Part shown: one piece after another, positions 9,881 through 38,377 of the stretch
Layout: each line of letters starts with the position of its first letter
Position numbering within the stretch: the stretch's first letter is position 1
Source of the DNA: Lentinula raphanica
Lineage: Eukaryota > Basidiomycota > Agaricomycetes > Agaricales > Omphalotaceae
DNA length: 64,000 bases
Assembly: GCA_027919835.1 (NCBI GenBank)
Contig: JANVFP010000011.1
Location: 496,001-560,000, forward strand
Direction of reading: 5' to 3'
The notes under the pieces: generated by a model
The model's database searches: none
What the model saw: the letters and a program-made list of their open reading frames with translations, nothing else
What the model was told of the DNA's origin: nothing
Translations under genes and position numbers: made by a program

Positions 9881-10112
9881 TTGAATAGTTTTGGTGAATT
9901 GCATTAATCTACAGCTTGGAGAACATAAAATCGAACGTAGATAGGAACCGGAGACGAAAATCGACCACGATTCGGTAGGCGCCCGCTTAGTCAGCGCCGC
10001 ACGAGTTGGCAGGGATTGCCCATACTCAGTGTTCAAGATCGAACCGGACTACGAGAAAAAACTCCAAGTCGTGTCGTCAAAGCAGATCGAGAACTTGGAG
10101 ATCGAGGAGAAG

Positions 10113-10811: not shown

Positions 10812-11440
10812 TTAGGTAGCGAGATTACAGCCAACAATTCGAACTAGACAGAGATTCAACAGATAGACATAGAAAAGACAGCCAGATTAACTCACTCGAG
10901 CCATCGCTCTCGCCAACCCCACAAAGCATCTCCGTAGGGTGAAAAACGAAAGAGGAAGCACGCGGAATGTACGGTGATGGGTTGGGTTTGACCGGTGCTG
11001 TGACGAGGCCAGTGGATATGTTATACTGCGATAGAGGCTCGTCGTGTTCGGCTACCAACGAGCGGAAAGACAATCGCTGTGAGCGGTATCTGGTGTTCGT
11101 GATTGCAGAAGAGCTATGAGAGGATGTCAGTACTGATCTTCCGAATCCAATGTCCTTAATAGAAACGCCCACCCAGCGAAAACCTTTGCGGTACTGTGGA
11201 CGTCAAACGCTGAAAGACCAACATCTTGCATGAGGTTCCATGTAGTCACAACCTGATCGGTCCGTCCTCGTATATCCCATAACTTGACTTCACCTTCGAC
11301 GCTGGAACAAAGTCAATGTTCAATCATCCATACAATCATATCAACAAAAACAATGAGCCTACCTTGCAGAAAGGAACTGATACATCATGGTAGGATGAGG
11401 CTTCACGTTTTGAACCCAAGCAAGATGACCTCGATGTGTC
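10812..11440 (-). pseudogene. KOG1: C-terminal exons of raptor, cut off by the giant transposon
   Basis: Four exons on minus (11440-11363, 11301-11173, 11113-10896, 10843-10812) encode the last WD40 blades of Raptor/Kog1/Mip1, the substrate-binding subunit of TORC1. Recognisable pieces are GHLAWVQNVKPHP, GEVKLWDIRGR, GLSAFDVH, FVFHPTEMLCGVGESDG and the ending IRIVGC, which is the characteristic Raptor C-terminus. The fragment begins in mid-blade, exactly at the GATGTGTC duplication (11433-11440). It continues the frame that stops at 34504 on the other side of the KDZ element. It has no start codon or promoter of its own. Confidence 0.92.
11433..11440. repeat. Left target-site duplication of the giant KDZ element
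   Basis: GATGTGTC here is repeated exactly at 34504-34511. Both copies are read as raptor codons in the right frame on their own side. The outermost base could belong to either side, so the duplication is 7 or 8 bp. Confidence 0.9.
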
Positions 11441-11486
11441 AAGAAACCTTCGGCCTGCTATTTAAACAAGTGTGGCCAAGGCCACC
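11441..11486 (+). repeat. Left terminal inverted repeat of the KDZ element
   Basis: It begins AAGAAACCTTCGG and contains TTTAAACAAGTGTGGCCAAG. It pairs, without gaps, with the reverse complement of 34458-34503. Confidence 0.8.
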
Positions 11487-12070
11487 CTCCATTTAAACAT
11501 GTTTAATACTCTCCGCGCGCTCAGTACACGAGCTCGTTCAAACATATTAGTGTACTGGTTGTTTAGAACTTGTGTCTGCTTGAACTCATCTCTGTTTAAA
11601 TCTCATCTGTGTTTAAGTCTCCTCTGTGTTTAAGTCTCGTCTCTGTTTGAACTTCATCTCTGTGCAATGGCTCTGTGTTTACAGGAAACTGTTTGTTTAA
11701 AGAGCAGCGTGTTTAATGGAATGAATAGTGTATATTTAAATGAAAGAGATTCGTTTGAAAGTGTGTGTTTAGAAATATGTGTTTAGAAGAGAGTGTTTAA
11801 AAGAGTGTATTTAGAAGAGCAAAGCGTGCTTAAAGGGAGTGTTTAAAAGAGTGTATTTAGAAGAGCAAAGGGTGTTTAGAGGGAGTGTTTAAAAGAGTGT
11901 ATTTAGAAGAGCAAAGGGTGTTTAGAGGGAGTGTTTAAAAGAGTGTATTTAGAAGAGCAAAGGGTGTTTAGAGGGAGTGTTTAAAAGAGTGTGTTTAGAA
12001 GAAAATGTCTGGAGTTGAAAGAGCGTGTTAACAGGAGAATGGCAGAAGGGTGTGTTTAAATAAAAAGGGT
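11487..12070. repeat. Left subterminal repeat array of the KDZ element
   Basis: This AT-rich block contains dozens of copies of GTGTTTAAA, GTTTAGA and related motifs. From about 11785 to 12000 it includes a cleaner tandem array of a 46-bp unit, roughly four copies. The motif orientation is the reverse complement of the array at 33945-34440. Such paired subterminal arrays are typical transposase-binding regions. Confidence 0.8.
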
Positions 12071-12687
12071 ATATTGATAAGAGTGCTGGTGAAAGAGCGT
12101 GTTTGAATGAAAATATGTGGTGAATGAACAGGGTATAAGTGGATTCAAAAGAATGTATTGAAACCATGTGTGAAGACAACGAAGAGTATGTTCGAAGAAG
12201 GAAACCGAGATAATCGAAAGATTGACCGAGAGAATCACAACATAGTAGAAAACCTGTTTGGGAGTGTCTTCAGGAACTTACCATTCTCATCGACGAGAAT
12301 GGGATCGCCATCTGCATTTTGGGTAACATACCCCTCAGATACTCCTTTGTCATTCACCATCATAACTCGGCCATCGGTTTGTGGAACGAGATCAGACCAG
12401 CCCTTGGAATGCTGCTTTGCTTTTTTTGCAGCAGGTTGAGGACCAGAATCTGGATTCGTCCTCTTCCTAGACTTCGTGCGAGAACTCCTGCGAACAGTGT
12501 CAACCTCATCAGCAGAGGTAGTAGAGACACCTGCTACCAAAGTAGGATCTGTTCGCGAAGATGAAGTCTGGTTCTTCCGGGCATTGGCACGAGTCTTGCG
12601 TGCCGCACGTACAGGCTCCGAAGGCCCGGTTGACAAAGGCGTAGAAACGATTGTTGGTGAAGGAGCTGCAGCCATAATCGGATGAGA

Positions 12688-12692
12688 GATAG
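12688..12692. repeat. Target-site duplication of the gypsy element (left copy)
   Basis: GATAG here is repeated at 20399-20403, directly outside the two LTRs. Confidence 0.9.
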
Positions 12693-13214
12693 TGTCACAG
12701 ATTTCTCTCTATTCTCTACCTTAATCACTTATCTTATCTCCTATCTCTATCTTATCATATTATCAGTAGTAGTTTATCATTTGATCATCTCTGTGCCATA
12801 CATATTTTCATTTGTACAACCAGTGATGGGACATGCTTGCTCTGCACCATATCTACATTACAACAGGTTGTCTTATGATGTAATAAGTGAAGCATCCACA
12901 GGATGACTTCATAGATGACTTCATAGATGACTTCACCATGAATCATCCACAGTCTCCACAGGATGACTTCATGGATGACTTCACCATGAATCATAGTGAC
13001 TTCATAAATGACTTCATGTAGCTCCAACTATGACATGGACTATGATATCATTAGATAGTAGCTCCACTCTAGAGTAGTATAAATACTCTCATGTATCTCT
13101 GGGATCCCCCAGATTCAAGAACATCTTTTATCCTCTTGTGATCAACTTGTGCTCATACTCTGTCACTATCCCCAACCTTTGCAACTACAACTAGGTGAGT
13201 TCTAAGTTGTGATA
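12693..13214 (+). repeat. 5' LTR of the gypsy element
   Basis: It starts TGTCACAGATTTC and ends GTTGTGATA. It contains direct repeats of a GATGACTTCAT motif at about 12902-13020 and a TATAAATACTC box at about 13077, the likely promoter. Near its end lies AGGTGAGT, a good splice-donor sequence. Confidence 0.93.
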
Positions 13215-13237
13215 GTTTCTTGAATCTTGCTGCTTGT

Positions 13238-13315
13238 GTGTCTGTTGTTGCTGTCAAGGACAACAGACACTTCTTTTTCTTTCTTGCCTGTTGTTGCTGT
13301 CAAGGGCAACAGGCA
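13238..13315 (+). promoter_or_regulatory. Two hairpins with a shared loop in the gypsy leader
   Basis: Positions 13238-13248 pair perfectly with 13260-13270 (11-bp stem), and 13285-13293 pair with 13307-13315 (9-bp stem). Both loops carry TGCTGTCAAGG. The stems differ by paired changes, so base pairing is kept although the sequence is not. The site lies between the 5' LTR and the first ORF, where retroelement packaging or dimerisation signals usually sit. Confidence 0.55.
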
Positions 13316-13698
13316 GGGACCTTTTGCAGGTTGTGCAGTCTGACTTCTTGTCATGGCTGTGGGGGCATCACCACCTTGTTTGGTCCTTCTGGACTTTGAA
13401 CACTGTTGCTGAAAGGGACAGTTGTTCTTGATTTGCCGGACCCTAGGCGTAAGGGGACTTGCTGTATTTCATTACAACAAGACTGGTACCTTTGGGTAGG
13501 CCATGATCTGGTTCTTTTTGAACTGGAGTAGACGGCAAGCCAGCTCTTGGGCAAGAACCAGGGAGTGTGTAACACACTCTCATTTGCTACATGAGGACAT
13601 GTAGAGATCCCCCATCCATTTGACATCAAGATCGTCAAGACTTACACACTGCATCTGGTTCCCTTTGTTTCTTTGTACTTGTCTGCTGAAAAGGGACA

Positions 13699-14577
13699 AT
13701 GTACTTATGCCGTTTCTGCCAGACAATGCCTTGCAAAATTATTCCCACTTTTCCCATGAAATATACTCCTTCCAACCGTCGTAACCATGTGTCTGTCATG
13801 GCCATGGATAAATCGACAGGTCTTTGGGAACGAATCACCATTCCCAAGGACAAACGGAAGAAGTATGATCATGTCGGACGTCCTTGCTATACCAAAATCC
13901 CTGTCTACGCACCTGTGCGTACTCATAAACTCACCCTCCTCCAACGCCTCCAAATCTCGATCTCTCACAAGAAATACCTCACTAAGCTCCGTAAACGTCA
14001 TCTTAAATACGTCGAGCGAGAGCGCCTAATGAATAGGCTCCATGATCTGCCTTCTCAGGATCATGATACCTCTCCAACCCATAAATTCTTTCCTGACCCT
14101 GTCTATGTTCCTCCTCCACCTATTCCCTCTGATCTCCACTTCCGACGAATTCCGACCCTTGCTCAACGCCTTGAAGAACCCTCTCAGCTCACTCCTCTTG
14201 ATACTTATCCTAAACAGGATGCTGTCCTTAAGCGTATCAAGGAGTTTGAAGGTGTTCTGCAGGCTACCAAAATTCGTCTCGAGCCAGTTTTCAGGGAGTT
14301 AAACTCGGAAGAGTACAAGGAATATAATGGACAGGCTTTTAGAATTTCCAATCAGGATCGAAATTCTCTTTGGGGATGGTATAATGATTTAGAGGATTTA
14401 TATCAGGATCTAGATAAGAGGGGACACCAATTGAGTAACAAAAATTGGAGAGAGATAAAAGGGATATGTACCAAAATTGGGAAAGTCAATTTTCAAAGTC
14501 TGTATACTAGGCTTCCTGAAATTTGCAAGGAGCTATTAGACCTGAATATTGTACTTCCTGATGCAGCCAAAGCATGA
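13699..14577 (+). CDS. Extra ORF ahead of gag in the gypsy element
   Basis: This 292-residue frame lies between the 5' LTR and gag, where most gypsy elements have no gene. The product is basic in the first half (many Arg, Lys and His), with a Pro-rich stretch near residues 135-150 and a Trp-rich segment (SLWGWYNDLEDLYQDL) near residues 220-240. No zinc finger, protease or capsid motif is evident. A second ATG lies 20 codons in (13759) and could be the real start. It is in the same strand and probably the same transcript as gag. Function unknown; it could be an accessory or early structural protein. Confidence 0.55.
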   Translation: MYLCRFCQTMPCKIIPTFPMKYTPSNRRNHVSVMAMDKSTGLWERITIPKDKRKKYDHVGRPCYTKIPVYAPVRTHKLTLLQRLQISISHKKYLTKLRKRHLKYVERERLMNRLHDLPSQDHDTSPTHKFFPDPVYVPPPPIPSDLHFRRIPTLAQRLEEPSQLTPLDTYPKQDAVLKRIKEFEGVLQATKIRLEPVFRELNSEEYKEYNGQAFRISNQDRNSLWGWYNDLEDLYQDLDKRGHQLSNKNWREIKGICTKIGKVNFQSLYTRLPEICKELLDLNIVLPDAAKA

Positions 14578-14674
14578 TAGTCTTATGTAATTTGGCAAAC
14601 ATTTGTGTTTTTTCATATATTCATTTTTTCATATTATGTCTGAAAAATAATCTGACTTCAAAACAACTAGAAAA

Positions 14675-16141
14675 ATGTCTTACACACCTTTCACCCCTGT
14701 CGTTGAATTAGTCGATGATGGACAAGTTTGGTCCGATGCTGTCTCTCAAGGAATTGATATGGCAGCAATTGGATTTCAAACTGATGAGCAGAAAAATCAG
14801 ATTGGACGACTCCTTCGCAATGCTCACGAGGCTACTACCAACATTTCCATTGGATATATTAACAGAAATGTCAATGGACTTGCTGATTGGATGAATCAGG
14901 CTTTTACTACAGCCTTCACCAATCAAGAGAACTTAACAAATGAAGTTCGTAGCCTTCGACAGATTGTCGAAACTCAGGCAGAACTTTTACGAGCTTATAA
15001 GGCACAGCTTGATAAGCTTCCTGCTGATGCTGGAGCTGGCCCATTCAGAGGTCCCAAAGTACCTGACCCACCAACCTTCTCTGGAACAGACAACAAGATG
15101 ACCTTAGAAGATTGGATGAATCAAGTCGCATTGTACTGCTCATCTTTAGGCATTGTGACAGATCATCAAAGAATTGTGACTGCTCTTACTAGGTTGCGTT
15201 CTCCTGCCACAAACTATATGAGAAAGTACTTTGATGACACACGTTTGGGAAACGATCTGGGATCTTGGGACAACTTTGCCAATGAGCTCAATGCCATTTA
15301 TGGTCGCCGTGATAACAAAGAAGGTGCTAAAAATGAAATCACACATCTTTGGACAAACAAGTCACTGGCTAGTAAGGACTTTATCAAATATGCTGAACAA
15401 TATCGCACTCTTGCACGTATTGTGGACTACCAAGATAGTATTCACATCGACAAGCTTCGTGATGTAATTTCACAAGAGTTGCGTAATGCACTTGTTGTGT
15501 TGGAAATTTCCGGAAAGACTCCTACTAAATGGGAAGATTATCTGGAACTTCTCCTTTTATCATATAAAGCCTTACATCCAGAAAAGACTAAAAGTGTAAT
15601 ATTTGGCACAGGCAATAATGCTAAAGGCAATGGCAGTCATGAACCAGATGCAATGGAGATAGATGCGGCAAAAAAGAGTAAAGGCAAAACCCCAGAAAAG
15701 GTTAATTCCCAGGAGCAAAAACAACGATATTGCCAAATATGCGCCGGAAAGGGCTTAAAGGCAAAATCGAAGACTCACAATACAGTGGATTGCTGGGATA
15801 AGCCTGGAAATGAAGGCAAAAGGCCAAATTTCAATAAAAACTCTTCATCATCTGCATCTGCATCTGGTCAAGGAAACAAAGGGAAACAACCACCACCGAG
15901 TGATAAGAAATCATTCAAAGCGCGGTTGATGGAATTATTTGATGAAATAGACAGCCAAGAGCCAGCGCCCCCAGCTGATGCTCTCAATGTCAACTCCACG
16001 AGCACCCCTGATATTAGTTTACCTGAGCTCACTGCAAAAGGAGCAACTGCACATGTCGGTGAAGTGCAGGCAGGACCTTCTAAGCCATCGCGATGGGCTA
16101 GAAGTCAACAATACAAGGCGGATTTTCCAGAGGGACTGTAG
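14675..16141 (+). CDS. gag: Gag polyprotein of the gypsy element
   Basis: The 488-residue product has the usual retrotransposon gag layout: an N-terminal helical region, a capsid-like core (residues ~120-310, with PPTFSGTDNKMTLEDWMNQV and later FIKYAEQYRTLARI) and a basic C-terminal part. A zinc-knuckle-like motif CQICAGKGLKAKSKTHNTVDC (C-x2-C-x11-H-x4-C, longer than the standard spacing) lies near residues 350-370. It would form the virus-like particle. The next ORF is in the -1 frame, 77 bases downstream by ATG, but its frame is open up to the gag stop, so readthrough by frameshifting is possible. Confidence 0.9.
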   Translation: MSYTPFTPVVELVDDGQVWSDAVSQGIDMAAIGFQTDEQKNQIGRLLRNAHEATTNISIGYINRNVNGLADWMNQAFTTAFTNQENLTNEVRSLRQIVETQAELLRAYKAQLDKLPADAGAGPFRGPKVPDPPTFSGTDNKMTLEDWMNQVALYCSSLGIVTDHQRIVTALTRLRSPATNYMRKYFDDTRLGNDLGSWDNFANELNAIYGRRDNKEGAKNEITHLWTNKSLASKDFIKYAEQYRTLARIVDYQDSIHIDKLRDVISQELRNALVVLEISGKTPTKWEDYLELLLLSYKALHPEKTKSVIFGTGNNAKGNGSHEPDAMEIDAAKKSKGKTPEKVNSQEQKQRYCQICAGKGLKAKSKTHNTVDCWDKPGNEGKRPNFNKNSSSSASASGQGNKGKQPPPSDKKSFKARLMELFDEIDSQEPAPPADALNVNSTSTPDISLPELTAKGATAHVGEVQAGPSKPSRWARSQQYKADFPEGL

Positions 16142-16218
16142 AGGATAATGTCTGCGATCTACAGTCAGGAAATAGTGTACCCAATATCAGCACTGATAAA
16201 AAATCAGATAAAGTAGTT

Positions 16219-19200
16219 ATGGAAGCTTGTTTAAATAATATTGCTCGTAACAAGAAATCATCTTTTAGACTTTCAGTAACACTTTGGGTATACAGTTTTA
16301 AAGTGCAGGCCGAGGCTCTTGTTGACTCTGGAGCAACAACAAATTTCATCGACAAAAGATATGTTGAAAGAAACCACCTGGTAACAAATAAGATAGCACA
16401 ACCGTATCAAGTTTTGAATGCGGATGGAACGCCAAATGTTGCAGGAGAGATAAAAGAGTATGTTCGAGCATATGTCCAAATTGGTTCACATAAAACCATA
16501 CAGTATCTATATGTCACTCAGCTAGGTGACAAGGACATGATGATTGGATACTCTTATCTCTACAAACACAATCCAGAAATAGATTGGCATTCAGGGGAAT
16601 GGGCGTTCACCAGGTGTTCAGAGACATGTGCATCTAGAGCCCGTAAAATACGAGTTGATGAAGCTGGAGCTGATGAGCTTCACCTCGAACCAGATTTACC
16701 ATGGGAATCTTCACTGGACAATTTAGGAGAAGAGGACATGGATAATCCTTACATTAACTGGATTGACATGCACAATTCAGATGAGCAAAAACAAGCAGCA
16801 ACTATTGCTGCTATGTTTGATGAAAAACATCTAGAAGAAGAATTTGTTGAAGAAGATGAGGATACCACTAAGTGGAAATCTCTTATACCACCATGGTTAT
16901 ATGATTATGGTGACGTCTTCTCAAAGAAAAGATCAGAGCGGATGCCAGAACGTAAACCATACGACCATCCAATTGATTTTGAGGAAGGGTCTACTCTTCC
17001 CAAACCATCAAAAATCTATCCACTGTCTTTAAAAGAAAGGAATTCTTTGGATGAATGGATTGATGAGGAACTTAAGAAAGGCTATATTAGACCATCTCAA
17101 AGTCCTATTGCTGCTCCATTCTTCTTTGTCAAGAAACATGATGGTTCCTTACGACCAGTCATGGATTATCGTGCTCTCAATGATATCACTGTTAAGAATC
17201 GCTATCCAATCCCTCGAATATCAGACTTAATAGACTCTCTCAGCCAGGCTTCAATCTTTACAAAGATTGACTTACGCTGGGGATACAACAATGTTCGAAT
17301 TCGTAAAGGAGATGAATGGAAAACAGCATTCATTACAAAGCGGGGTTTATTTGAGGCAACAGTCATGTATTTTGGATTCTCCAATGCACCAGCTACCTTT
17401 CAGGCAATGATGAATGATATCCTCGGAGACTTGATACGTAAAGGAAAAGTAATGGTGTACTTGGATGATATTCTTATATTTGGCAATGACAAAGAAGAAC
17501 ACAGGGAGATTGTTCGAGAAGTGCTGCAAAGACTTCGAGACAATGATCTCTATGCAAAAGCTGAAAAATGCTTTTTTGAGCAGGACAGTATAGACTACCT
17601 TGGAATGATTATTTTTAAGGGTTATGTGAAGATGGATCCAAAGAAGCTTGCTGGAGTTCTTGAGTGGCCTGTACCAACAAAAGTAAAACATGTTCAAGCA
17701 TTCTTAGGCTTTGCAAATTTCTACAGAAGATTTATTAAAGATTTTGCCAAGATTGCAAGGCCACTCACCAATCTCACTAAAAAGGATCAACCTTGGCTCT
17801 GGGATGACATAGCACAGGAAGCATTTGAAGCGCTGAAAAAGGCTTTCACAACTGCTCCCATTTTAAGAATACCAGATGACACTAATCCTTTCCGACTAGG
17901 CACAGATGCCAGTGATTTTGCAGTCGGAGCTGTATTGTACCAACTGGACCCAGATGACAATCTGTGGCATCCAGTTGCCTTCTATTCCAAGTCACTCAGT
18001 GTTCATGAACGTAACTATGAGATATATGACAAGGAATTGCTTGCAATTATACGAGCATTGGAAGAATATCGACATTACTTGGAAGGTCATCCAGAAAAAT
18101 TTGAAATATGGTCAGATCATCAGAATTTGACTTATTTCCGGTCTGCCCAGAAGCTAACACGAAGACAAGCGAGATGGGCTCTGTATCTTACTCGCTTTGA
18201 TTATTCTCTACGGCATAAGCCAGGGAAAACAATGCAGGCTGAAGACCCTCTGTCCAGGAGGCCAGATCATGAGGAGGGGGTAAACCTCGACAATCGAGAT
18301 CAAATTTTACTCAAACCTGAATTTTTTGCCATTCAGGCTATTGAGGCTGCTCATGAATCGCCTATCAATGATGAACAAATCCTAAGGGAGGTCAAAGAAG
18401 CCTTGCTAACTGATGAAGTTACGAAGGATTACAAATCACTTCTGTCATCAGGACCACGTGAATTCAAGAAATCACTAGAAGAGTGGAACTATGAAAATGG
18501 TCTACTACTCTACCGTGGTAAAATATATATTCCAAAGAGCACAGATGATCATCTACGAAGACGCATAGTTCAAATGCATCATGATTTACCATCAGCAGGA
18601 CATCCTGGTAGATGGAAAACCTATGAACTCGTTTCTCGAAACTATTGGTGGCCAGGGATGTCAGTCTTTGTAAAAAATTATGTCTCAGGCTGTGATACTT
18701 GTCAGCGGATGAAAAATCGCTCACAACAGCCTTTTGGACCCTTACAACCTAATCGAGTACCAAATGGACCTTGGGAAATTATTTCCATAGACCTTATTAC
18801 TCAATTACCACCATCTGGAAAGCACAATGCCATATGTGTTGTGGTAGATCGCTTGACTAAGCGTGCACACTTCTTTGCAATCACAAATAATTTCACAGCC
18901 AAAGACTTAGCAAAGTTACTCTATGACAGGATATATCCACTGCATGGACTCCCATTGCAAATAATATCTGATAGAGGAACACAGTTTGCTGCTGAAGTTT
19001 TTCAAGAATGGTGCAGGCTACTTGGAATTGAATCTACTATGTCAACTGCCTATCATCCACAAACTGATGGACAAACAGAACGTGTTAACCAGATTCTGGA
19101 ACAATACCTCCGGTGCTATGTTGACTATAATCTCAATGACTGGGCCGATCTTCTGAGCACAGCAGAGTTTGCGTACAGCAATCAAGCACATGAAGGTACC

Positions 19201-19908
19201 AAGGAGAGTCCATTCTTCCTGGAATATGGTCGACATCCTCGTGCAGGTCCTATGCTCATTAAAAATCAGGGATCCATTGATTTCAATGACATAATGCAAC
19301 AAAGACTTGAAGCTCAAGAGCAAGCAAAAGCAGCTCTAAAGCTTGCAGCTGAAAGAATGAAATGGTATTATGACAAAGGAGTTCAAAACATACCTTTTAA
19401 AGTTGGAGACAAGGTTCTATTGAATCTTAAAGATTATCAAACTACAGAACGAGCTCTCCAACCAAGATTTGAAGGTCCATTTAAAATCATCAGAAAACTA
19501 TCAGATGTGACCTTTGAACTGAAACTACCTCCAAAATACCGTGGAATACATCCTGTTTTTCATGCTAGCAAGCTTGCCACCTATACAGAATCTACCATTC
19601 CAGGACAAAAGGCTCCTACTCCTGAAACTATAATAGTTGATGGAGAGGAAGAATGGGTAGTGGAGAAAATTTTACAACACCGAGTTCGGAGAAAGAGATT
19701 GGAATATCTGGTGAGATGGAAAGGTTTTAGTCGAGATCATGATACTTGGGAACCTGCTGCAAATCTCAAAAATGCACCAGAAAAAATTCGAGAATATAAA
19801 AAACAAATTGATCATTCAATTGAAAGTGTGGAACTGGACATATTCTCAACGGAGCTCGAATCTGAAGAGGGGGTAATGTCACAGATTTCTCTCTATTCTC
19901 TACCTTAA
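16219..19908 (+). CDS. pol: Pol polyprotein of the gypsy element with chromodomain
   Basis: The 1,229-residue polyprotein has all enzymatic domains in Ty3/gypsy order: aspartic protease (ALVDSGATTNFID, ~35-47), reverse transcriptase with YLDD (~414-417), RNase H (LGTDASDFAVGAVLY and YDKELLAI), integrase zinc finger (H, H, C, C around 790-830) and DDE core (ISIDLI, IISDRGTQF, QTDGQTERVN). A C-terminal chromodomain follows (EEWVVEKILQHR, then YLVRWKGF and DTWEP). A chromodomain places it among the chromoviruses and suggests targeting to marked chromatin. No internal stop is seen. The ATG at 16219 is the first in frame after the gag stop; the true entry may be a frameshift. Confidence 0.96.
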   Translation: MEACLNNIARNKKSSFRLSVTLWVYSFKVQAEALVDSGATTNFIDKRYVERNHLVTNKIAQPYQVLNADGTPNVAGEIKEYVRAYVQIGSHKTIQYLYVTQLGDKDMMIGYSYLYKHNPEIDWHSGEWAFTRCSETCASRARKIRVDEAGADELHLEPDLPWESSLDNLGEEDMDNPYINWIDMHNSDEQKQAATIAAMFDEKHLEEEFVEEDEDTTKWKSLIPPWLYDYGDVFSKKRSERMPERKPYDHPIDFEEGSTLPKPSKIYPLSLKERNSLDEWIDEELKKGYIRPSQSPIAAPFFFVKKHDGSLRPVMDYRALNDITVKNRYPIPRISDLIDSLSQASIFTKIDLRWGYNNVRIRKGDEWKTAFITKRGLFEATVMYFGFSNAPATFQAMMNDILGDLIRKGKVMVYLDDILIFGNDKEEHREIVREVLQRLRDNDLYAKAEKCFFEQDSIDYLGMIIFKGYVKMDPKKLAGVLEWPVPTKVKHVQAFLGFANFYRRFIKDFAKIARPLTNLTKKDQPWLWDDIAQEAFEALKKAFTTAPILRIPDDTNPFRLGTDASDFAVGAVLYQLDPDDNLWHPVAFYSKSLSVHERNYEIYDKELLAIIRALEEYRHYLEGHPEKFEIWSDHQNLTYFRSAQKLTRRQARWALYLTRFDYSLRHKPGKTMQAEDPLSRRPDHEEGVNLDNRDQILLKPEFFAIQAIEAAHESPINDEQILREVKEALLTDEVTKDYKSLLSSGPREFKKSLEEWNYENGLLLYRGKIYIPKSTDDHLRRRIVQMHHDLPSAGHPGRWKTYELVSRNYWWPGMSVFVKNYVSGCDTCQRMKNRSQQPFGPLQPNRVPNGPWEIISIDLITQLPPSGKHNAICVVVDRLTKRAHFFAITNNFTAKDLAKLLYDRIYPLHGLPLQIISDRGTQFAAEVFQEWCRLLGIESTMSTAYHPQTDGQTERVNQILEQYLRCYVDYNLNDWADLLSTAEFAYSNQAHEGTKESPFFLEYGRHPRAGPMLIKNQGSIDFNDIMQQRLEAQEQAKAALKLAAERMKWYYDKGVQNIPFKVGDKVLLNLKDYQTTERALQPRFEGPFKIIRKLSDVTFELKLPPKYRGIHPVFHASKLATYTESTIPGQKAPTPETIIVDGEEEWVVEKILQHRVRRKRLEYLVRWKGFSRDHDTWEPAANLKNAPEKIREYKKQIDHSIESVELDIFSTELESEEGVMSQISLYSLP

Positions 19909-20398
19909 TCACTTATCTTATCTCCTATCTCTATCTTATCATATTATCAGTAGTAGTTTATCATTTGATCATCTCTGTGCCATACATATTTTCATTTGTA
20001 CAACCAGTGATGGGACATGCTTGCTCTGCACCATATCTACATTACAACAGGTTGTCTTATGATGTAATAAGTGAAGCATCCACAGGATGACTTCATAGAT
20101 GACTTCATAGATGACTTCACCATGAATCATCCACAGTCTCCACAGGATGACTTCATGGATGACTTCACCATGAATCATAGTGACTTCATAAATGACTTCA
20201 TGTAGCTCCAACTATGACATGGACTATGATATCATTAGATAGTAGCTCCACTCTAGAGTAGTATAAATACTCTCATGTATCTCTGGGATCCCCCAGATTC
20301 AAGAACATCTTTTATCCTCTTGTGATCAACTTGTGCTCATACTCTGTCACTATCCCCAACCTTTGCAACTACAACTAGGTGAGTTCTAAGTTGTGATA
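19877..20398 (+). repeat. 3' LTR of the gypsy element
   Basis: Same length and sequence as 12693-13214 as far as can be read. The pol frame runs about 30 bases into this LTR before its stop at 19906-19908. Confidence 0.93.
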
Positions 20399-20403
20399 GA
20401 TAG
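20399..20403. repeat. Target-site duplication of the gypsy element (right copy)
   Basis: GATAG, identical to 12688-12692. Confidence 0.9.
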
Positions 20404-26100: not shown

Positions 26101-26381
26101 TCTAGATCAAAGTACTGTGTGATGTCCAACCTCGCGTTTGTCGTTCGAACAATCGCAGGAGATGGTTGTCTGTCTGCTCTACCTATGACTGTCTCTAAAC
26201 TTGATGAGGTATCGACGAAAATTTCGGCTGCGTCCGGCGGTGTACAAGTTGGGGCAGTCAAAGAAGCGTCAGGCGATGGATCCTTCAGCGTGTTTTTGTC
26301 TTCTTCGGTGGGTGGTATCCTAGCACTGGTTTCTTCTTCGGCGGAGCGTACGTTATTCATCACATTCACTGATGCGTCCAT
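23168..26381 (-). CDS. Spt5-like KOW-motif protein carried by the KDZ element
   Basis: Multi-exon gene on minus with ATG at 26381-26379 and stop at 23168. Order of parts: an acidic Ser/Asp/Glu-rich start (SDADAYESEDEESG), a DITQYFDLEA segment, and an NGN-like region (NTEWDVVRYLL, then VIYLEARF). Several KOW-type units follow: SIGDWVTVSHGLYKNDVGLV, PGDRVVSISHGLGRAVSGIV, PGDYVKVLQGPKTGSTWLV, VEVRITRGLFSNRKAIV and GARVKIVKGPWKGYRGVV. This resembles transcription elongation factor Spt5, but the C-terminus lacks Spt5's CTR repeats and is instead a unique domain of about 250 residues. Such Spt5-like genes recur in Agaricomycete mobile DNA. It might help transcription of the element or interfere with host elongation; that is inference. 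It is divergent from the gene at 27524. Confidence 0.75.
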
Positions 26382-26644
26382 CTTCGACAGCAATCTTAAT
26401 CAAGTCTATCAATATCGATCAGATACCTACCGAAGGTGAAAACCATTAGTTAGCAAGTCTCGATACCGCCTTCTCTCATTGATATGAGCACTTCAACCCT
26501 TCGTCGTCTTCAAGTCATTCGGAGTGACGGAAGTTCAGACCAATAGTATGAGCCTTCTCACCTCACGTTGATAGCATGCATACAATCGACTACTCAACGA
26601 GAACACTCAACGAGGACACTCAACGAGGACACTCAACGATGATA

Positions 26645-26918
26645 TGCAGTGAGGATACCAGCGATAGTGACGGTCTTAGAAAGAAGAAAATGAACAGTTC
26701 CCACGGTCTGAGTGGCAACGTGAACCTGCGGGTCAGAACGAAAACGACTGAAAAAGGAAGGCTGACTCACAGGTAGTGTGACTGTGAGTCAGCCTTCCTT
26801 TTTCAGTCGTTTTCGTTCTGACCCGCAGGTTCACGTTGCCACTGAGACCGTGGGAACTGTTCATTTTCTTCTTTCTGAGACCGTCACTATCGCTGCGGGC
26901 AGCAGTATCCTCACTGCA
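26645..26918. repeat. Near-perfect 270-bp palindrome between two divergent genes
   Basis: Arms of about 128 bp (26645-26772 and 26783-26918) are almost exact reverse complements, separated by about 10 bases around GTAGTGTGAC. The outer ends read TGCAGTGAGGAT and ATCCTCACTGCA in a broad sense, with a few mismatches and a short bulge in the right arm. It could be a foldback MITE or a structured regulatory region. Just outside it, at 26595-26640, lies a short tandem repeat of ACTCAACGAGGAC. Confidence 0.85.
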
Positions 26919-27523
26919 TCATTATCGCTGATGGTCCTTACTCTTCGTTTTCGAGAGTGCTGAGATCTCTGTCGACATGAATCTGGCGCTTCAGGATGCC
27001 GTTCGATTCTCTAGCTTTGAAATATAGTACAGAAGTCGAAGTGAGTGATGTGAACCACTGCATACGCTCAGTTTCTCAACGCTTTCGAACCTCAGTTTCG
27101 TGCTGCCCACTCACCCCATTCATTTTACGGACGTATCTACGAACAAACAACGAGTGCGCTTCGGACGACTTTTCGTGCTGCCTAATCTCACTTCAAATTA
27201 TTCCAATTCAAAGTGGTTTGAAATTTGACTGTTGACCCAACCGCTAGTGTCCTCCAACGGCTCAATAGCAAATCAGACATTAGCGGGATTTTGTTGTCCT
27301 ACCCTGACAAGTAAACCTGCCTGGCGGGAACAGGCGGAAACCACGTAGCCACCCCCTCATCTTGAAATCTCAAGATTGTGCATGACCGACCGTCCGGATT
27401 TGCAAGGTCCGCCATTCGTTCAACTCCCAAAGGTGAGTTTTACAAGGTTCTTTTTCCGGTATAATCGTTGTCCTGACAAGTATAAAAGCTATCGTCCATC
27501 CTTGCTTTTTCAAGACGCCCATC
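26919..27523. other. Intergenic stretch inside the KDZ element
   Basis: No coding pattern is seen. The last 60 bases before 27524 contain a TATAAAAG box (about 27480), a likely promoter for the plus-strand gene that follows. Confidence 0.4.
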
Positions 27524-28840
27524 ATGCCTAAGGCTCCCCCTCCTCCCAAATCACCGACAAAAAAATCCGTCATCATCGATTATACTGCCCATATTTCCGC
27601 CCGATTGAGAGCAATCCGTGCTTCCTTGTCGCTGCCTACTACATTCCCTCGACCTTCGGTTGGACCGAACGAGGTCATTGCGGGCATACGTATGTACCAC
27701 GGTGTAACTCACAACGTTGATGGGCCGTTACACACACGCTTTGATCAACTCGGTCGACTCTTCTACGTAGTAAGTGATATTCTTCTCTCGACATCTATAC
27801 CTATCTCTTACACACAGCCCAGGTCTGCAATAAAAAATCTGCCGCACCTTCGATTAGAATTATTTGGGAAGATGTTCCTGTCCCCCGAGCAGCGCTAGAG
27901 GCCGACACAGAGTTGATTCGATTGCTCGAACTACGTTCGGCTGTACAAGGCAATGGGGGAAGCAGCCAGTCTGCAGCCTCTTCCCCTTCTGGTTGTTCAA
28001 CCTCGGCTCCCACTCCCTCTGGTTCCTCCACTTCCCGTTCGTTCCCTTCTCGTTACTCCGCTTCTCGTTCCTCCGCTTCTCGTTCCGTTTCTCGTTCCTC
28101 CAACACGGGCTCATCTCCGTTGCCTCCCGAACCTGCAGAGAGGGTTTCTTCTGCGGGACCATCGACTAGACAAGCTATCTCACTTCGCCTCACAGAACTT
28201 ATGTCGGCACCTGCGGCGCTCGGTGTCGATGCACCTCCAACTCTTCCCGCACAATCTGATGACGAAGTAGAATTCGTCGGTTTCGTTCACCCGAACGGAG
28301 ATGTTCTACCTCAGCGCCCTGCTCGTAGGCTTGCTGATGACGAAGTGGAATTCGTCGGTTTCGCTCACCCGAACGGGGATGTTCTACCTCAGCGCCCTGC
28401 TCGTAGGCTTGCTGGAAAACTCAAGGACACTGTACAGGGATCCACAGGCGGTGCTGGCCTTGCTAAGGACAGTGGACCTACACCTCCGAAATCCATCATG
28501 ATTACGATCATAGCATGGGCAGCAGTGAGTCCATATTCATCTTGTTTCATTAGTGGACACTAACTCGATTATTGGCCAGAACTCCTACGAACATACAACC
28601 GTCAAACTCTCGGTAGAAAGCGGCCATTTGATTACTCTCAATTCGGTCACTGAGGCACTTCGAACCCTTCAACTGAGCAAGATTTCCGATCTTGATCGCT
28701 ATATTCCTGGAAAAGGTTGGGCACGTATCCTCATGAATACGCCCTTCAGAGTAAGAGATGGCGATATCGTTTCTTTGAAACCATCGGCATTGAAGGTCAT
28801 TCAGAACTTTGAAATTCACGCACCTCATTTCTCTCCTTAG
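27524..28840 (+). CDS. Ser/Arg-rich KDZ cargo protein of unknown function
   Basis: Three exons (27524-27769, 27823-28524, 28580-28840) join in phase 0 and encode about 402 residues. Residues 1-100 form a compact region with a RIIWEDVPVPR motif. Residues ~120-190 are almost pure Ser/Pro/Arg and probably disordered. A 26-residue acidic unit (DDEVEFVGF, then HPNGDVLPQRPARRLA) follows in two tandem copies; the DDEVEFVGF core resembles a SUMO-interacting motif. The C-terminal ~100 residues look folded (LDRYIPGKGW, then PFRVRDGDIVSLKPS). No known family is recognised. It lies between the Spt5-like gene (divergent) and the transposase (same strand), so it may act in transposition or in a process such as SUMO-linked targeting; that is speculative. 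Confidence 0.7.
28258..28413 (+). repeat. 78-bp in-frame tandem duplication
   Basis: Units 28258-28335 and 28336-28413 differ at only a few positions and keep the reading frame of the cargo gene, so the protein has two copies of a 26-residue acidic/basic unit. Confidence 0.9.
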
Positions 28841-28845
28841 GTTTT

Positions 28846-29275
28846 GCCTGCTTTCTATACTCCTTTTCGCAAACTCTACAAATACCCCAATACCCCTTGC
28901 TTATGACTTGTGCCTACTTCGTTTATATCAGCAATCCTTACAACACACGCTCATTCACGCTCCCTTGTTACTATTTTACATGTTCTTGTAATATTGTTGG
29001 CTATTCTTTCTCTCTGCAGAACACACGCTCTTTACGCACTCGGTTTCATCTGTGGAACATTTTTGCCTACTTTCTATAGTACTTTTTACACAAATACCCC
29101 AATACCCCGATGATATGTGCATATTTTGTCAATCCTTGCAACACACGCTCATTCACACTCCCTCATTTCTATCTTACAAGTTCTTCTTCTACTACGGTCG
29201 GCTATTCTTTCCTCTGCAGAACACACGCTGTATCACACACTCGTTTTTGTCTGTGGAATATTTGTTCCCGAATAT
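28846..29275 (+). repeat. Two-copy direct repeat of about 215 bp
   Basis: Copies at about 28846-29066 and 29067-29275 share blocks such as TGCCTNCTTTCTAT, CAAATACCCCAATACCCC, AACACACGCTCATTCAC, GGCTATTCTTTC and CTCTGCAGAACACACGCT. They are diverged by small indels. They lie between two genes on the plus strand and have no coding pattern. Confidence 0.8.
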
Positions 29276-29741
29276 TTTCAATAATATACTAAGTATATGA
29301 TATCAACCAGTGATATGTGGGGATCACAACCCTATAAATCCTCATATCTGAAACATAATGAATGTGTTCAGGCTGCAAAAACTTCCCTTTGAATTGCGAA
29401 AAAAAAGAAGAAAAAGACCAATATCCTGTGGTACGAAAGGGTACGAATCACATTTCGTTACAGACAAAGTGATTCGGATCTTCTTGTCCGCAATGACATT
29501 AAACTACGCGGAAACTAGGGTCAAAGCTGAATCAACCCAACCTCAGATAGCTCAGATCTAGCTAGTGAGCAGACGAACGAACCAGGGCGAACCCCAAATG
29601 AACCAACTCGCCAGTCCGTGGACTTGAAACTCCCAACCTTCGCTTGGTGATTTTTCTTACCTTGTCCTTCTTACCCATACACGTCGTTGCCCTTCTTACC
29701 CATACACGTCGTTGCCCATCTTGTTGCCCTTCATCTGCTTC
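29276..29741. other. Intergenic stretch before the transposase gene
   Basis: About 465 bases without a gene. It contains a repeated ACCCATACACGTCGTTGCCC (two copies at about 29690-29720) just upstream of the transposase start, which could be part of its promoter or leader. Confidence 0.4.
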
Positions 29742-32700
29742 ATGCCAAGAAAAAAGAAGACTGCCGTTCTCGATGAGTCTGAACTCGTCATGGAATACTC
29801 TCCGAATCGACAAATATTCATCTCCGACACCGACACTAAAGGTCTACATGAAAGCGTTTACATGTCTTCTCATGCCTCTCATGCGGCAAGCACCTCGATG
29901 GCTCCTCCCTCCTTCATTCCCAACGGGCTGAGGACCGAATCACAGTCAGTCCCACTGGATGCAACCTCCTCTGTTTCCAACTTTGTTGAGGACACCGAGA
30001 AGACCCGGACTCAGGTATGCAGAATGTGTTTCTTACAGTCACTGCTCTCATTATAACTGTTCTGTAGCGCGCGCGACTCTTAGCTGAGTACAGTGAAAAT
30101 TTCGCACTGGTAGCCCGGTTGTTGATGGCCAAAGAAGCAGACCATCGTATAGGCTCTGTTTGCGAGTGTAACGAAGCTCCTCGCGAGGTTCGTTGCTTCA
30201 GCTGTATGCAACGTGCACCGCTTTGTCGTCGTTGTTGGGTACAAGCACACGTCTATCAGCCGTTGCACTGGGCCCATGTCTGGAGTGAACGTCGAGGTTA
30301 TTTTACCTGCCAGGATATCTCCACCGTTCTTCCAGAGGGTTCTGGTATCTCGCTAGGCCATAGTGGAGATCGCTGCCCTCGAGCATCTGAACCTGTTCTC
30401 ATGACTATTGCAGATGTGAATGGGATCCACGCAACAAAAGTCTGGTTCTGCCAATGTGCTGACTACAGCAGATGGCGACAGCTATTCGATATAGACATAT
30501 TTCCGGCCACCGTCGCACAACCCCAGACGGGCTTCACCTTCGAACTCCTCCGGCATTGGACTATTCTCAATTTACAGTCGAAGATTACAGCGCATCATTA
30601 TGTAGCAGCACTTCGTCGTCAAACGGACAACGTGTTTACAGGCAATGTACCTGTGAGTCTATTACCTTCGAACTGTGAGGCGTAACTCATGAAAACTATC
30701 TAGGACGTTGTAAACCACTTCCGGTTCATAACTCGAATTTGGCCTCTGTTCTTAGCTGAAAAACGAAGTGGAGTTTTCTACGGTAAAGGCATGAAGGAGG
30801 CCTTTCCGCTTCGCCCACCAAACGATCTAAGGACTGGCTGTTTCATTTGTCCGGAGGCTCAGGTCAATGTGGAAGATAGATGCGACAGAACGCCTGAAAT
30901 TCTTCGGTAAGACCTCATTGCTCAGTATTTGTTACGCAAACCGAACCTCACACTACTATCATCGAAAGGCATACACAATCTCAGCGATGGGTCGTAGACG
31001 GCAACATGAAGACCGGAAATTTTGTCAAGAATAGTGACCCTGATGATGCCTCCCTTTTCGCAGGCAGGGCTTACATGCCTTTGGAGCAGCAGTTTGAACA
31101 TTATCAACAGACTGTTCCTCAGTCACAGAAAGAGGTAACGTTTGTGCGTTTTCTTGTGGTTCTGATTCGGCGGTTAACAACATCTAGTAGAAAACAACAT
31201 GCAACCATCTCAAAGTCGCCAATGGTGCCAATACTGCGAAGTACAAACAACAACGAATCAGCGGCAATCTCCATATTCAATGTGACCACGGAGTGGTCTT
31301 ATCAAGTGTTGACATTATGCTGGGCGAACGGTATGTCTGTCATAGTAATTCTGGTGAACTGTAATTGATAGGATTCAGGTTCGCACTTTATGACTATGCG
31401 TTGAATTTAGCTCTCGAAGCGCGCCCATTTCCTTCTGGCAAACGACCCGACCTAGTCATCAGCTACGACAACAACTGTGGTGCGGTCGCTAACGTTCATT
31501 CTCGATGGCAAAAATACTTTCCGCAGAACTCCGATATCATCAATGGTGCTCGTTTCACGATTCCTGCTTGCCACGTCCGCAATCACGTCGAAGGATGTGA
31601 TTATTTGTATTGCTACCAGTACAAACCCAGTACAGGCCACTTTCATGGTGAGACTGTGGAGGCCACTTGGTCCATTTTCAATTCTCTCTCAGGGGCAGTT
31701 CTTCAAATGGGACCGGGTCATCGAATCGACACCCTGATCATTCATTATAGCGATTGGAACTGGAGGAAGGCTGTAAGCGCATGTACGATCTCATTCTCTG
31801 CAATCCAAACGCGTACTGTTCCTAATACTTCCTGCAGCACGGCAGCTTCTACACGACCTCGAGGAAGCCAAAATACAGTATATTTCGAAGCGCGACCATT
31901 ACGCTGGACTTTGCGATCTATTCGAATCAAGGGTTTTGGAATGGAATACCTGGGATCGTTCACCGAAGATTGATCCCAAGAAGAAGAAAACCGTCACTAG
32001 TGTATATTCTCATAACAACGAGAAAGGTGTGTAGGCTGTGAGTCGTTACGTTGACCTCTATGAGTTCTCAAATTCAACTTAGCACCGACCATGAAGAGCC
32101 TAGTGGAGAGTCTCGTGTCAGCAGAGGAGTTGGTTGTGGTCTCAACCGGTGCCGTGAAAGCAGGATCCGTGGCAAGTTGGCTGATGGAAGGATTGGCCAT
32201 TGTTCAGTTGCAGTACGTAGTCATAGCTTAATTGCTAAATTGCCCAAGAACTAACGGTATTTCAGGTCACGAATTCATCGCATTGCACGGACATGTCCAG
32301 AGAACCCAACAAAGGAACTCAGGGCACGTCGCACGAAGCTCGCGAACCGGATATCCAAATGGCGCCAAATCCAGCATCAATACATGCCATCCATAGCACC
32401 TGGCCAAGCGCTCGAAGACGCCGAAAATGAATCCCTCCTCTTGCCTTCCGATTTCACAGCTCGCGAACGACTCCAGCATGGCTTAGTGGGCCTGGCTAGT
32501 AAACAAGTGCAGACTCTCGAGATCGCGCTTGGGGAGCTCATACATTCGCTTCAGACAACCGTGAAGACATTATCGGCTGCTTATGAGCGTAAACACAAAC
32601 ATGCGAGTGGTCAAGATGCCAATACCCGCGCTAATGGCGAGCTTCGAACTATCGAAACTAAGCGCAACAACCTCATATCCGACTACAATATGTTTCGGCA

Positions 32701-33937
32701 AAATCTTCATGCGTTGGACAGTTTGGACGATACAAAGTGGCCTTCTTTAAGTGTTCAAGATACATTCCGAAAACCGACAGAAACACGACGTGCGCCTGGT
32801 GACTCACGAAAGAGAGATGGTGCTCTGTGGCAGTTGTCAAGTGCCGGTCGCAGCACTGTGCAGTCGGAGTTTGCAGGTGATTTAATATTTGGGAACAGGG
32901 AGACAGACGTTGCAGATGGGTCTATCGGAGTTGAGGAACCTGTCTTCGACACAGACAATATCAGCTATATCGGTAAGAGAGCTTAACAGTCAAGCATGTC
33001 TTTTGGCTGATTGAATCTTCATCAGGAACACAAATGTCATTGCGTCGAGGTACATGTGCATGAGCACTGCTTATTCCACACCCACTTGACTCACCAAACA
33101 CTTGAACAGGAACAAAAACATCAACGCGTCACAGTAAACATTTTCCGTTCATGGCTTACTCTTTCTCTGCTGACTTTTGTGTTAGCACATGTCTCTTCAC
33201 AGCCGAAGTCTGAACAATCACTTGGCAAAGAAAGAATGGACACCAACACCCTTACAGATGATAACGTCTCATCTTCGTCAACTATTGAAAGGAAGGATGG
33301 CTGGATTTGGCATACCAGTTTGTTGAAGCATATGAGTGCGTCAGAGTTGGAAAAATGGGAAGATAAAAGTACGTTTTGCAGTTTTGATCTGAACTTGCAA
33401 GTGATGTGACCTCTACTTAGATGATAGTGTCCAGTGGTTTCGAGCTGAGGCGGATATGGAGCGGTGGCAAGAGCAGCTCGAAATCAAGCATGCGGAGTTT
33501 CTTCGGCTTATAGCAAGCTTCACTACGCATTGTAATGCTTGGGAATCACTTGCAAAGAGTTACTCTGATTCACCTGGCCATCTCGCGTATGCACGGGAAC
33601 ATCAAGATATGTTCGACAGTCTCCGTGTGGATGCTGAGGAAAAGTATCGACAATGCGCGTTACCCTTTTTTCGACACCGCGAATCAGGCGAATCACTTGA
33701 AAACCGAATCATGTTGTGGCGAAGGGAGGAGGAAAAGCTGTTTAAGTGGGATAGGTATGTGATGTTCTATCTTGGACACTATCTCTGTTCATAGCCATCT
33801 TCAGATGGTCAGCACGTCCACCTTTCCATGACCCGACTATCTTTAAACATGGTGGTGATACGCGTGAGCCAGATGATCTAGGCGGAATCGAATGCGATGA
33901 GCTAGCAGGCGTCAAACGCAAGTTCGATGAAATTTAA
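29742..33937 (+). CDS. KDZ-superfamily transposase (CxC2-type zinc cluster plus DDE core)
   Basis: About 14 exons; those I could place are 29742-30014, 30068-30652, 30704-30906, 30969-31134, 31191-31330, 31379-31782, 31838-32026, 32083-32212 and 32266-32972, then several up to the stop at 33935-33937. An N-terminal cysteine cluster (CECN, CFSCMQRAPLCRRC, then H..H..HVW) matches the CxC2 domain of Kyakuja-Dileera-Zisupton transposases. The catalytic motifs are VDGNMKTGNF (Asp at 30997), ISYDNNCGAVANVH (Asp at 31467) and HGETVEATWS (Glu at 31651 or 31660), with the usual ACHVRNHVEGC between. The C-terminal third is helical and charged, ending with a nuclear-signal-like KRKFD. No stop interrupts the joined exons, so it may be functional. 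It should cut and join the element's own ends. Confidence 0.9.
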
Positions 33938-33944
33938 ATAAGGT

Positions 33945-34440
33945 GAGCGGGACTTGCTCTAAACATCATATTCATCTAAACAACATTGATCATATAAATA
34001 GCATGCTCAATTCAACAGTACAGTGGTCTAAACAGTACGCTGATTTAAACACTGCTCATATCTAAACGTCACACTCACCTCTTCACAGCACAATCATCTT
34101 CAAACAGTACGCTCATCTAAACAGTACCTTCATCTAAACAGTATGCTCATCTTTGAAATGTCACACTCACCTCTAAACAGCACGATCATCTTCAAACAGT
34201 ACGCGCACTTAAACATACGCTCATTTAAACGGTACCTTCATCTAAACAGTGAGCTCATTTAAGTCATTCATTCATCTAAACAGGATTTTATTTAAACAGA
34301 GGATTGTTTGATCCTGGTAGGTCTTTTTAGATCATCTCAGAGTGTAGCTAACTTTTAAACAGGATGTGTTCATTTAAACATGACATGGTCGGGTAGTACT
34401 AGGTAGCATACTGTAGTATAGCTAGAGAATACACTCATTT
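33945..34440. repeat. Right subterminal repeat array of the KDZ element
   Basis: About 30 short repeats of the forms CATCTAAACAGTAC, CATTTAAACA and CTAAACAGCACAATC follow each other right after the transposase stop. They are the reverse-complement orientation of the GTGTTTAAA motifs at the left end. Confidence 0.85.
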
Positions 34441-34457
34441 AAACATGTTTAATTATG

Positions 34458-34503
34458 TGGTGGGGTTAGCCACCCTTGTTTAAGTGAGACTCCGACGGTT
34501 ACA
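34458..34503 (-). repeat. Right terminal inverted repeat of the KDZ element
   Basis: Read on minus it begins TGTAACCGTCGG and continues CTTAAACAAGGGTGGCTAA. It matches the left end 11441-11486 at about 32 of 46 positions. Confidence 0.8.
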
Positions 34504-34511
34504 GATGTGTC
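34504..34511. repeat. Right target-site duplication of the giant KDZ element
   Basis: GATGTGTC, identical to 11433-11440. Confidence 0.9.
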
Positions 34512-37500: not shown

Positions 37501-38377
37501 TCGGAAGTTGTGTAGGAGGCTTGCGAGGTACAAGATGAGGGGTGGAACTCCAAGACGCAGCAGGGTTAGGAGAAAGAGGTATACTTTGTGCGGCTTTCAA
37601 AGCAGCCTCGTAGTCAGAACCCGAGGGAAGAGACAAAGGTCCTTTACGAGTAAGCGTAGAACCTCCCCTGGATATCCAGACTTCGAATGCGGTCATCTGG
37701 TCCGCAAAAAAGCTGCTGGGGACGTATTGGTAGGACAGAGGCTTCTGCCCATCATAACTCTGCTGCGCATCGTTGGCAGCGAGTAGCTGAGGGAGTTGTC
37801 TAATACAGGCATCTAAAGCGAGGTCCCAGGTATCCCATAACGGATGTGCGCTCGTGGATGGTAATGGAGGAGATGTATGTGGCGTACAGTTGTACCCTTT
37901 CATGAGTCGTTCAGCAAGGAGGAAGTTTCGAAACAATGACGCGATCAGTAGATCGCCGCGATACAATCGAGCGAATATCTCAGGAGAGAACGTAGTCCAT
38001 GCGATAGTATCTGTGATAGCAGTAAAGATCCAGTTCAGTTCTCCTAAAGGAGTCCGTCGATCTTTCAGGTTGCCAGGCATGTGGGCGGCGCCGTCGATAT
38101 CTAAATTGATTTTGTTTGTCAAAATATGGTGTCGGATTGCAATGTCGATAGGCGAAGTAAGACATGAAGTGAACATATCGGCAGGAAGGTCAGGACAGGT
38201 AGGAAGAGTTTCGTTGGCCTCACATGCTGCGAGCTGGAGGCTTTGTGTGAATGGAATCATTCCCTCAGGAAACAGTCCGCCGTTTTCACGTTCGATGTCT
38301 TCGTCGCGCCGTTTTGCGAATTCATTGAAGCTGAGAAGAAGACATCCAGCAGCGGAGCAATCCCAAATATACACCCC

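Follow-up and report, generated by a model that had tools for sequence, protein, structure and literature searches.

How a gene as essential as raptor can carry a transposon of 23 kb within its coding sequence is the question raised by a 64,000-nt stretch of the genome of Lentinula raphanica, a wood-decay mushroom. This stretch, called the window in the following, covers C11:496001-560000 of a genome of 49.06 Mb in 75 contigs, and positions without a contig name are counted from its first base. The interrupted gene, raptor-B, is split by a KDZ DNA transposon with a transposase gene, a paralogue of SPT5 and three further genes (a, b, and d). We consider it probable, at roughly 85%, that a five-gene KDZ transposon lies inside a redundant copy of raptor; this figure excludes the role of the SPT5-like gene, which is weighed separately. 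The transposon would have entered raptor-B by cut-and-paste transposition with a 7-bp target site duplication (TSD), and a Gypsy retrotransposon would later have inserted into the transposon itself (Table 1).

The first-pass annotation had placed a KDZ element exactly inside raptor, with the codons resuming in frame and the same 8 bases duplicated at both borders. Position and frame are confirmed, as raptor is read as ...EEEEAIVQTH at the right border and as THRGHLAWVQNVKPH at the left border, and the window flanks, joined in a script, give an in-frame read-through of the exon that encodes part of the WD40 region. The 8 bases GATGTGTC are indeed present at 11433-11440 and again at 34504-34511, but the duplication comprises only 7 bp and the element ends at 34504, since the flanks of other elements fit a length of 7 and not of 8 bp. 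A TSD of 8 bp was rejected due to mismatches in the close copies on C19 and C38, which are flanked by GACATGG and CATTGGA, respectively, the G that follows TTACA being part of the element. More diverged elements at C27:384715-400111 and C20:364134-381889 are flanked by CTAGGGA and ACATATA. Without any mismatch, a 7-bp TSD is thus present in all five elements (C11, C19, C38, C27, and C20), each of which ends in ...GGTTACAG, and the final G was found at all nine right ends examined (3 + 6).

Two paralogous places in the genome represent the uninterrupted site. The first is a raptor paralogue at C11:432773-433102, with 94 and 96% identity on either side of the insertion point, and the second is a third raptor copy at C54:36148-36485, with 83% identity and 2 mismatches within the 8 bases. 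A search for paired ends in the genome, as suggested beforehand, gave three paired copies (C11, C19, and C38) at unrelated sites. Discrete borders, TSD and empty site are all present in this member of the KDZ group, its movement being deduced from the sequence. Since assemblers can be misled by repeats, a repeat erroneously joined to raptor would be conceivable, but we regard such an artefact as most improbable in view of the perfect TSD and the empty sites, the different flanks and own TSDs of the other copies, and a Gypsy element that is private to the window insertion, the copies on C19 and C38 lacking it.

Inverted ends and inverted subterminal arrays had also been described correctly. Besides the imperfect terminal inverted repeats (TIRs), the motif GTTTA occurs 20 times in the left 800 bp versus 3 times in the right 804 bp, and the inverted motif TAAAC 2 times versus 17 times in the same regions; in the interior of the element (20501-29700), both motifs occur about 0.4-0.5 times per 800 bp. 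Presumably, a DDE-type transposase acts on these ends together with the subterminal GTTTA arrays.

Genome-wide, the Raptor_N domain (PF14538) was observed at three loci, namely at C11:428.7 kb (raptor-A), in the window copy (raptor-B), and in broken pieces on C54. In raptor-A the domain is open and reaches 219.1 bits, within a gene that contains a 1,315-codon open exon; in raptor-B it is still recognized with 166.4 bits. Both genes are situated on one contig and point in opposite directions, with a distance of 73 kb between their nearest ends and of 107 kb between their 5' ends. Due to the presence of this uninterrupted raptor-A with its empty site on the same contig, the paradox of a disrupted essential gene dissolves, and the alarm that the locus had caused is unfounded. 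Among the explanations offered before, a second copy is borne out, and there is no need to assume a dead allele in a dikaryon. The insertion would be tolerated because raptor-A presumably supplies TORC1. The third raptor copy (C54:32.5-36.5 kb) is decayed, with stops and frame breaks, and downstream of raptor-A (C11:426000-445999) the raptor 3' end and its downstream flank recur as several degenerate copies in tandem.

Raptor-B most likely represents a lineage-specific, fast-evolving duplicate. Among the 977 alignment columns with the same residue in all three outgroup proteins, raptor-A alone is changed at 6, raptor-B alone at 86 and both at 28; the duplication therefore probably took place after the divergence from the other Lentinula used, with raptor-B as the fast copy. 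Between the two genes, non-synonymous divergence (dN) is 0.055 and synonymous divergence (dS) 0.268, with a dN/dS of 0.205 over 1,263 codons. Compared to the protein of another strain, raptor-A differs at 2 of 1,197 residues and raptor-B at 20 of 1,083 (positions beside gaps excluded; 24 of 1,189 unfiltered), a ratio that is rough since the two comparisons may use different strains. From these 20 differences, 11 are derived in the window copy and 7 in the other strain, with 2 assigned to neither. A tree of the raptor duplications (415 columns) gave supports of 59 and 87 for the branching of the three copies; a loss of constraint in the window allele of raptor-B alone, as this tree had suggested, was dropped, since the fuller count of strain differences disagrees with it.

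In addition to the KDZ transposon, the Raptor_N coding sequence of raptor-B is interrupted by a miniature inverted-repeat transposable element (MITE), whose TSD copies GTTCACCA are situated at 38729-38736 and 38378-38385. The MITE is multicopy, contains no long frame and has CAGTG-type ends and an 8-bp TSD, which we take to be hAT-like from the end structure of hAT elements. In the other strain, the protein model of raptor-B reads NWLGSPGVYIW without interruption across the MITE site, so that this strain apparently lacks the MITE. A public gene model of 1,288 aa at raptor-B ends at the KDZ insertion and bridges the MITE as an intron; GT and AG of this intron apparently derive from both TSD copies of the MITE (GTTCACCAG), the splicing being predicted.

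An alternative to a redundant target is a raptor-B that was functional when hit, so that the insertion altered the fungus, either by loss of the gene or by a shortened protein lacking most of the WD40 end. Points that weigh in this direction, and thus against redundancy, are the 1,095-codon frame that is still open in raptor-B and the dN/dS of 0.205. Due to both, raptor-B was constrained for much of its life, may have been useful at the time of the insertion, and was, as judged by the open frame, not simply dead from the start. The predicted protein that ends at the insertion and the retention of raptor-B in a second strain, apparently without the MITE, are in agreement with this alternative as well. 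On the other hand, the 86 changes of raptor-B versus 6 of raptor-A at conserved columns, the approximately 10-fold higher number of between-strain differences (possibly from different strains), and the Raptor_N domain broken by the MITE make a functional target rather unlikely. Constraint on raptor-B was weak, and the MITE and KDZ insertions were added on top of it.

Returning to the KDZ transposon in a redundant raptor-B, its earlier description as a single 23-kb element has to be corrected: 7.7 kb belong to a Ty3/Gypsy retrotransposon without counterpart in the C19 and C38 copies, and the KDZ part comprises about 15.4 kb. The long terminal repeats (LTRs) of this nested element differ at 1 of 526 bp. 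The C19 copy contains two nested insertions of its own, of 11.7 kb (7-bp TSD) and 583 bp (9-bp TSD), the latter of which interrupts the transposase exon. With nested elements left aside, 35 differences separate the C11 copy from the C19 copy over 15,064 aligned positions, and 218 separate it from the C38 copy over 14,819. The element on C27 (15,397 bp) is collinear with the window element at 68-75% DNA identity in the longer aligned stretches. In view of 35 differences in 15,064 positions compared to the synonymous distance of 0.27 between raptor-A and raptor-B, we infer that the raptor duplication long preceded at least one of the two insertions on C11 and C19. A "very recent event", as also proposed from the sequence, is supported to this extent, the date applying to at least one of the two insertions.

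The transposase appeared complete in the first-pass annotation, which is supported by its open exons, by the domains KDZ (PF18758; 76.1 bits versus a cut-off of 26.6) and CxC2 (PF18803; 100.5 bits), and by the presence of the blocks D (WVVDGN), D (LVISYDN), and E (GETVEATW), which probably contain the catalytic residues. Instead of the minimum of three further genes counted before, four accompany the transposase gene. For gene b no match was obtained in Pfam at E <=1 or in the PDB at <=0.1, and gene d is without a Pfam match.

The SPT5 paralogue is identified by an extended match to the SPT5 family that includes the KOW and NGN regions. Residues 82-527 align to yeast SPT5 with an E-value of 2.4e-14, and 14 of 15 PDB matches at E <=0.1 are SPT5, the remaining one being NusG. 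A profile of five relatives matched 16 chains, i.e., 15 of SPT5 and one of plant RDM3. The protein has an acidic N-terminus, and KOW and KOW5_SPT5 are above the cut-off. NGN is below it, also in close relatives, and exceeds it in the wider-group loci on C25 and C44. This assignment is tempered by its derivation from sequence comparison and by a mean pLDDT (predicted local distance difference test score) of 31.1 for the structure model of a relative, built from five sequences. A separate and stronger NGN domain on C42 probably belongs to the SPT5 of the host.

Conservation of the genes within the element was assessed by comparison of the copies. Between the window element and its C27 relative, dN/dS amounts to 0.10 in the transposase (1,042 codons), to 0.17 in the SPT5-like gene, whose 965 codons contain no stop, to 0.19 in gene b (391 codons, one stop), and to 0.43 in gene a; gene d is saturated. 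In case of the C38 copy, with few changes, values of 0.14 (transposase, one stop codon), 0.19 (gene b), and 0.23 (gene d) were obtained. Gene b and the SPT5-like gene also occur as a pair near KDZ on C20, C34, and C43, and the pair is also present on C58 and at the end of C1, where no KDZ match is listed. Diverged relatives keep the transposase gene together with at least gene b and the SPT5-like gene, and the term "cargo", under which the additional genes were first described, is therefore misleading. The genes beside the transposase, including the SPT5 paralogue, would rather represent conserved parts of this KDZ lineage.

Several values weigh against such joint conservation. The dS between the C11 and C27 elements is near saturation, gene d cannot be scored in this comparison and gene b contains one stop codon. 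Towards the C38 copy, with few changes, the SPT5-like gene and gene a reach 0.59 and 1.02. The C11 and C19 copies show 29 coding differences in all (dN/dS 0.62); for the transposase these are 14.5 non-synonymous and 4.5 synonymous changes, and the C19 transposase exon is itself interrupted.

Association of SPT5-like genes with KDZ transposons was followed across the genome. The search with the SPT5-like exon gave 57 stretches, merged to 47 loci, and the KDZ set comprised the best 150 of 158 matches, merged to 113 loci; both numbers are lower bounds. Among the 27 SPT5-like loci with at least 33% identity, 16 are located within 12 kb of a listed KDZ locus, compared to a chance expectation of at most 5.5%, i.e., at most 1.5 of 27. 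As a control, Plavaka (129 matches listed) is within 12 kb of a single one of the 27 loci, and for SPT5-like loci below 33% identity 1 of 20 is near a listed KDZ locus at the same distance. When C19 and C7 are added to the 16 loci, 14 of the 18 pairs combine an SPT5-like gene and a KDZ gene of opposite orientation. On the opposing side, the fraction drops to 17 of 47 if all loci are counted, the threshold of 33% was set after the list was seen, and some loci are mutual duplicates. Furthermore, 11 of the 27 loci have no listed KDZ neighbour within 12 kb; for 9 of these, including C25 and C44 with NGN above the cut-off, the contig contains no listed KDZ match at all or the distance to it exceeds 20 kb. 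The other two are the window family member on C19 (19 kb, owing to the nested insertion) and C7 (14 kb). A second multicopy SPT5-like group below 33% identity (C8, C14, C39, and others) was also observed, in which 19 of 20 loci have no listed KDZ match within 12 kb.

The 9 loci mentioned above, together with the weak constraint on gene a (0.43 and 1.02 towards C27 and C38) and the divergence of gene d, which is too high to be scored against C27, would fit an explanation in which all four accompanying genes (SPT5-like, a, b, and d) are passengers that play no part in transposition. We consider this improbable, since gene order is identical in an element of about 70% identity, the SPT5-like gene shows a dN/dS of 0.17 without a stop in 965 codons, and its association spans several KDZ lineages.

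Assuming conserved parts of the transposon rather than passengers, it is tempting to speculate about the function of the SPT5-like protein. Its most likely role would be to enhance transcription of the element through binding to RNA polymerase II, or to disturb SPT5-linked silencing, a suggestion that we put forward with some reservation, as it has somewhat less than an even chance of being correct. Its purpose may be comparable to that of the TET/JBP genes in other KDZ elements, which are thought to counter methylation according to the available text of PMC12730594. Across the genome, 28 matches to TET/JBP (PF12851) were found, none of them in the elements on C11, C19, C38, C27, and C20, and a different anti-silencing gene would fit the lack of TET/JBP in the element. 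A fungal KDZ lineage with an SPT5 paralogue as a core gene could thereby be equipped with an elongation factor for RNA polymerase II, or with an anti-silencing factor, of its own, an idea that is tentative to the same degree. If true, transcription of large multigene transposons and their escape from silencing would become testable. A paralogue of SPT5 that is conserved as a gene of a transposon would be the new part and more surprising than the hit in raptor. With its exact borders and empty sites, the raptor part provides a clean natural example of a large KDZ element inserted into the duplicate of an essential gene.

Table 1. Features of the KDZ transposon and of the interrupted raptor-B gene (positions in the window)
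Feature	Position	Strand	Remarks
KDZ DNA transposon with nested Gypsy	11441..34504	+	23,064 bp; TSDs, empty site, three paired copies
Left TSD	11434..11440	.	ATGTGTC, 7 bp; length backed by C19, C38, C27, and C20 elements
Right TSD	34505..34511	.	ATGTGTC, 7 bp
Left imperfect TIR	11441..11505	+	begins AAGAAACC; inner limit approximate
Right imperfect TIR	34440..34504	-	CTGTAACC... on minus strand; inner limit approximate
Left subterminal array	11490..12240	+	GTTTA/GTGTTTA motifs; limits approximate
Right subterminal array	33930..34440	-	inverted motif TAAAC; limits approximate
Gene a	12238..12675	-	146-codon frame, no assigned function
Nested Ty3/Gypsy LTR retrotransposon	12694..20393	+	7.7 kb; pol 16102-19908
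Gene b	20924..22945	-	spliced model, 3' end uncertain, no assigned function
SPT5 paralogue	23171..26381	-	985-aa spliced model
Gene d	27524..28837	+	402-aa spliced model, no assigned function
KDZ transposase (CxC2 + KDZ)	29742..33934	+	~1,100 aa, several introns, exons open
Raptor-B 3' part	10885..11433	-	remaining WD40 region
Raptor-B 5' part	34512..39523	-	Raptor_N, middle region, start of WD40 region
hAT-like MITE in Raptor_N coding sequence	38386..38728	-	343 bp; 8-bp TSD GTTCACCA

Outside of the transposon and raptor-B, an AT-rich region of about 3.1 kb (43942-47050) forms a self-inverted repeat, and its repeats recur in the C19 copy, within the nested insertion of 11.7 kb. An open frame of 726 aa without a Pfam match is situated at 7700-9880, within a stretch (approximately 6372-10031) that is missing from the corresponding raptor 3' flank in C11:426000-445999.

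The KDZ group was reportedly named by Iyer et al. in 2014. A search of the available literature gave no paper that joins KDZ and Spt5, with an earlier mention in the KDZ-naming paper being possible, and the Kyakuja paper (PMC12730594), in its available text, does not contain "Spt5". As described there, Kyakuja elements of the Agaricomycetes resemble the window element in the KDZ transposase, the 7-bp TSD and an additional gene. Kyakuja-1/2_LB contain a TET/JBP gene and have CA..TG ends that lack TIRs, whereas the window element starts with AAGAAACC, ends with GGTTACAG (AAG...CAG), and has imperfect TIRs and no TET/JBP match; it thus shares the TSD length with Kyakuja, but neither the termini nor the TET/JBP gene of TET-positive KDZ elements. 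Zisupton, in the same source, has a KDZ transposase and TIRs as well, but an 8-bp TSD instead of the 7 bp present in all five elements here. Cryptococcus KDZ1-KDZ3, which were observed moving into a reporter gene, also encode KDZ transposases with a cysteine-cluster domain and are bounded by TIRs; according to the part of PMC12810828 at hand they differ in that they are 9-11 kb long, encode a CxC1 domain in place of CxC2, and have TIRs that measure 139-241 bp and TSDs of 8 bp (KDZ1) or 4-8 bp (KDZ2 and KDZ3).

With respect to size, the window element is similar to giant KDZ elements from Ectocarpus (up to 30.3 kb) and Chlamydomonas (up to 31.7 kb), and those of Ectocarpus also contain additional genes and nested insertions, but no SPT5-like gene is mentioned in the available sections of PMC12477816. 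The same sections report additional genes in fungal KDZ elements. As in the window element, CxC2 precedes intact KDZ transposons in Pleurotus (PMC7641404, available excerpt), and in Marasmius oreades KDZ and Plavaka account for about half of the DNA elements (PMC8290104, available excerpt).

In comparison with the SPT5/NusG family, the paralogue in the window shares the acidic N-terminus, NGN-like and KOW regions, and approximately 440 residues aligned to yeast SPT5, and plant RDM3, an SPT5-like protein, is a weak match to the profile of its relatives (E 0.007). It differs from the family in being transposon-encoded, the probable host SPT5 being located separately on C42. In bacteria, some operons and mobile elements contain specialised NusG paralogues. 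By analogy, and with no more confidence than for its function, the SPT5 paralogue of this KDZ lineage could be regarded as their eukaryotic counterpart.

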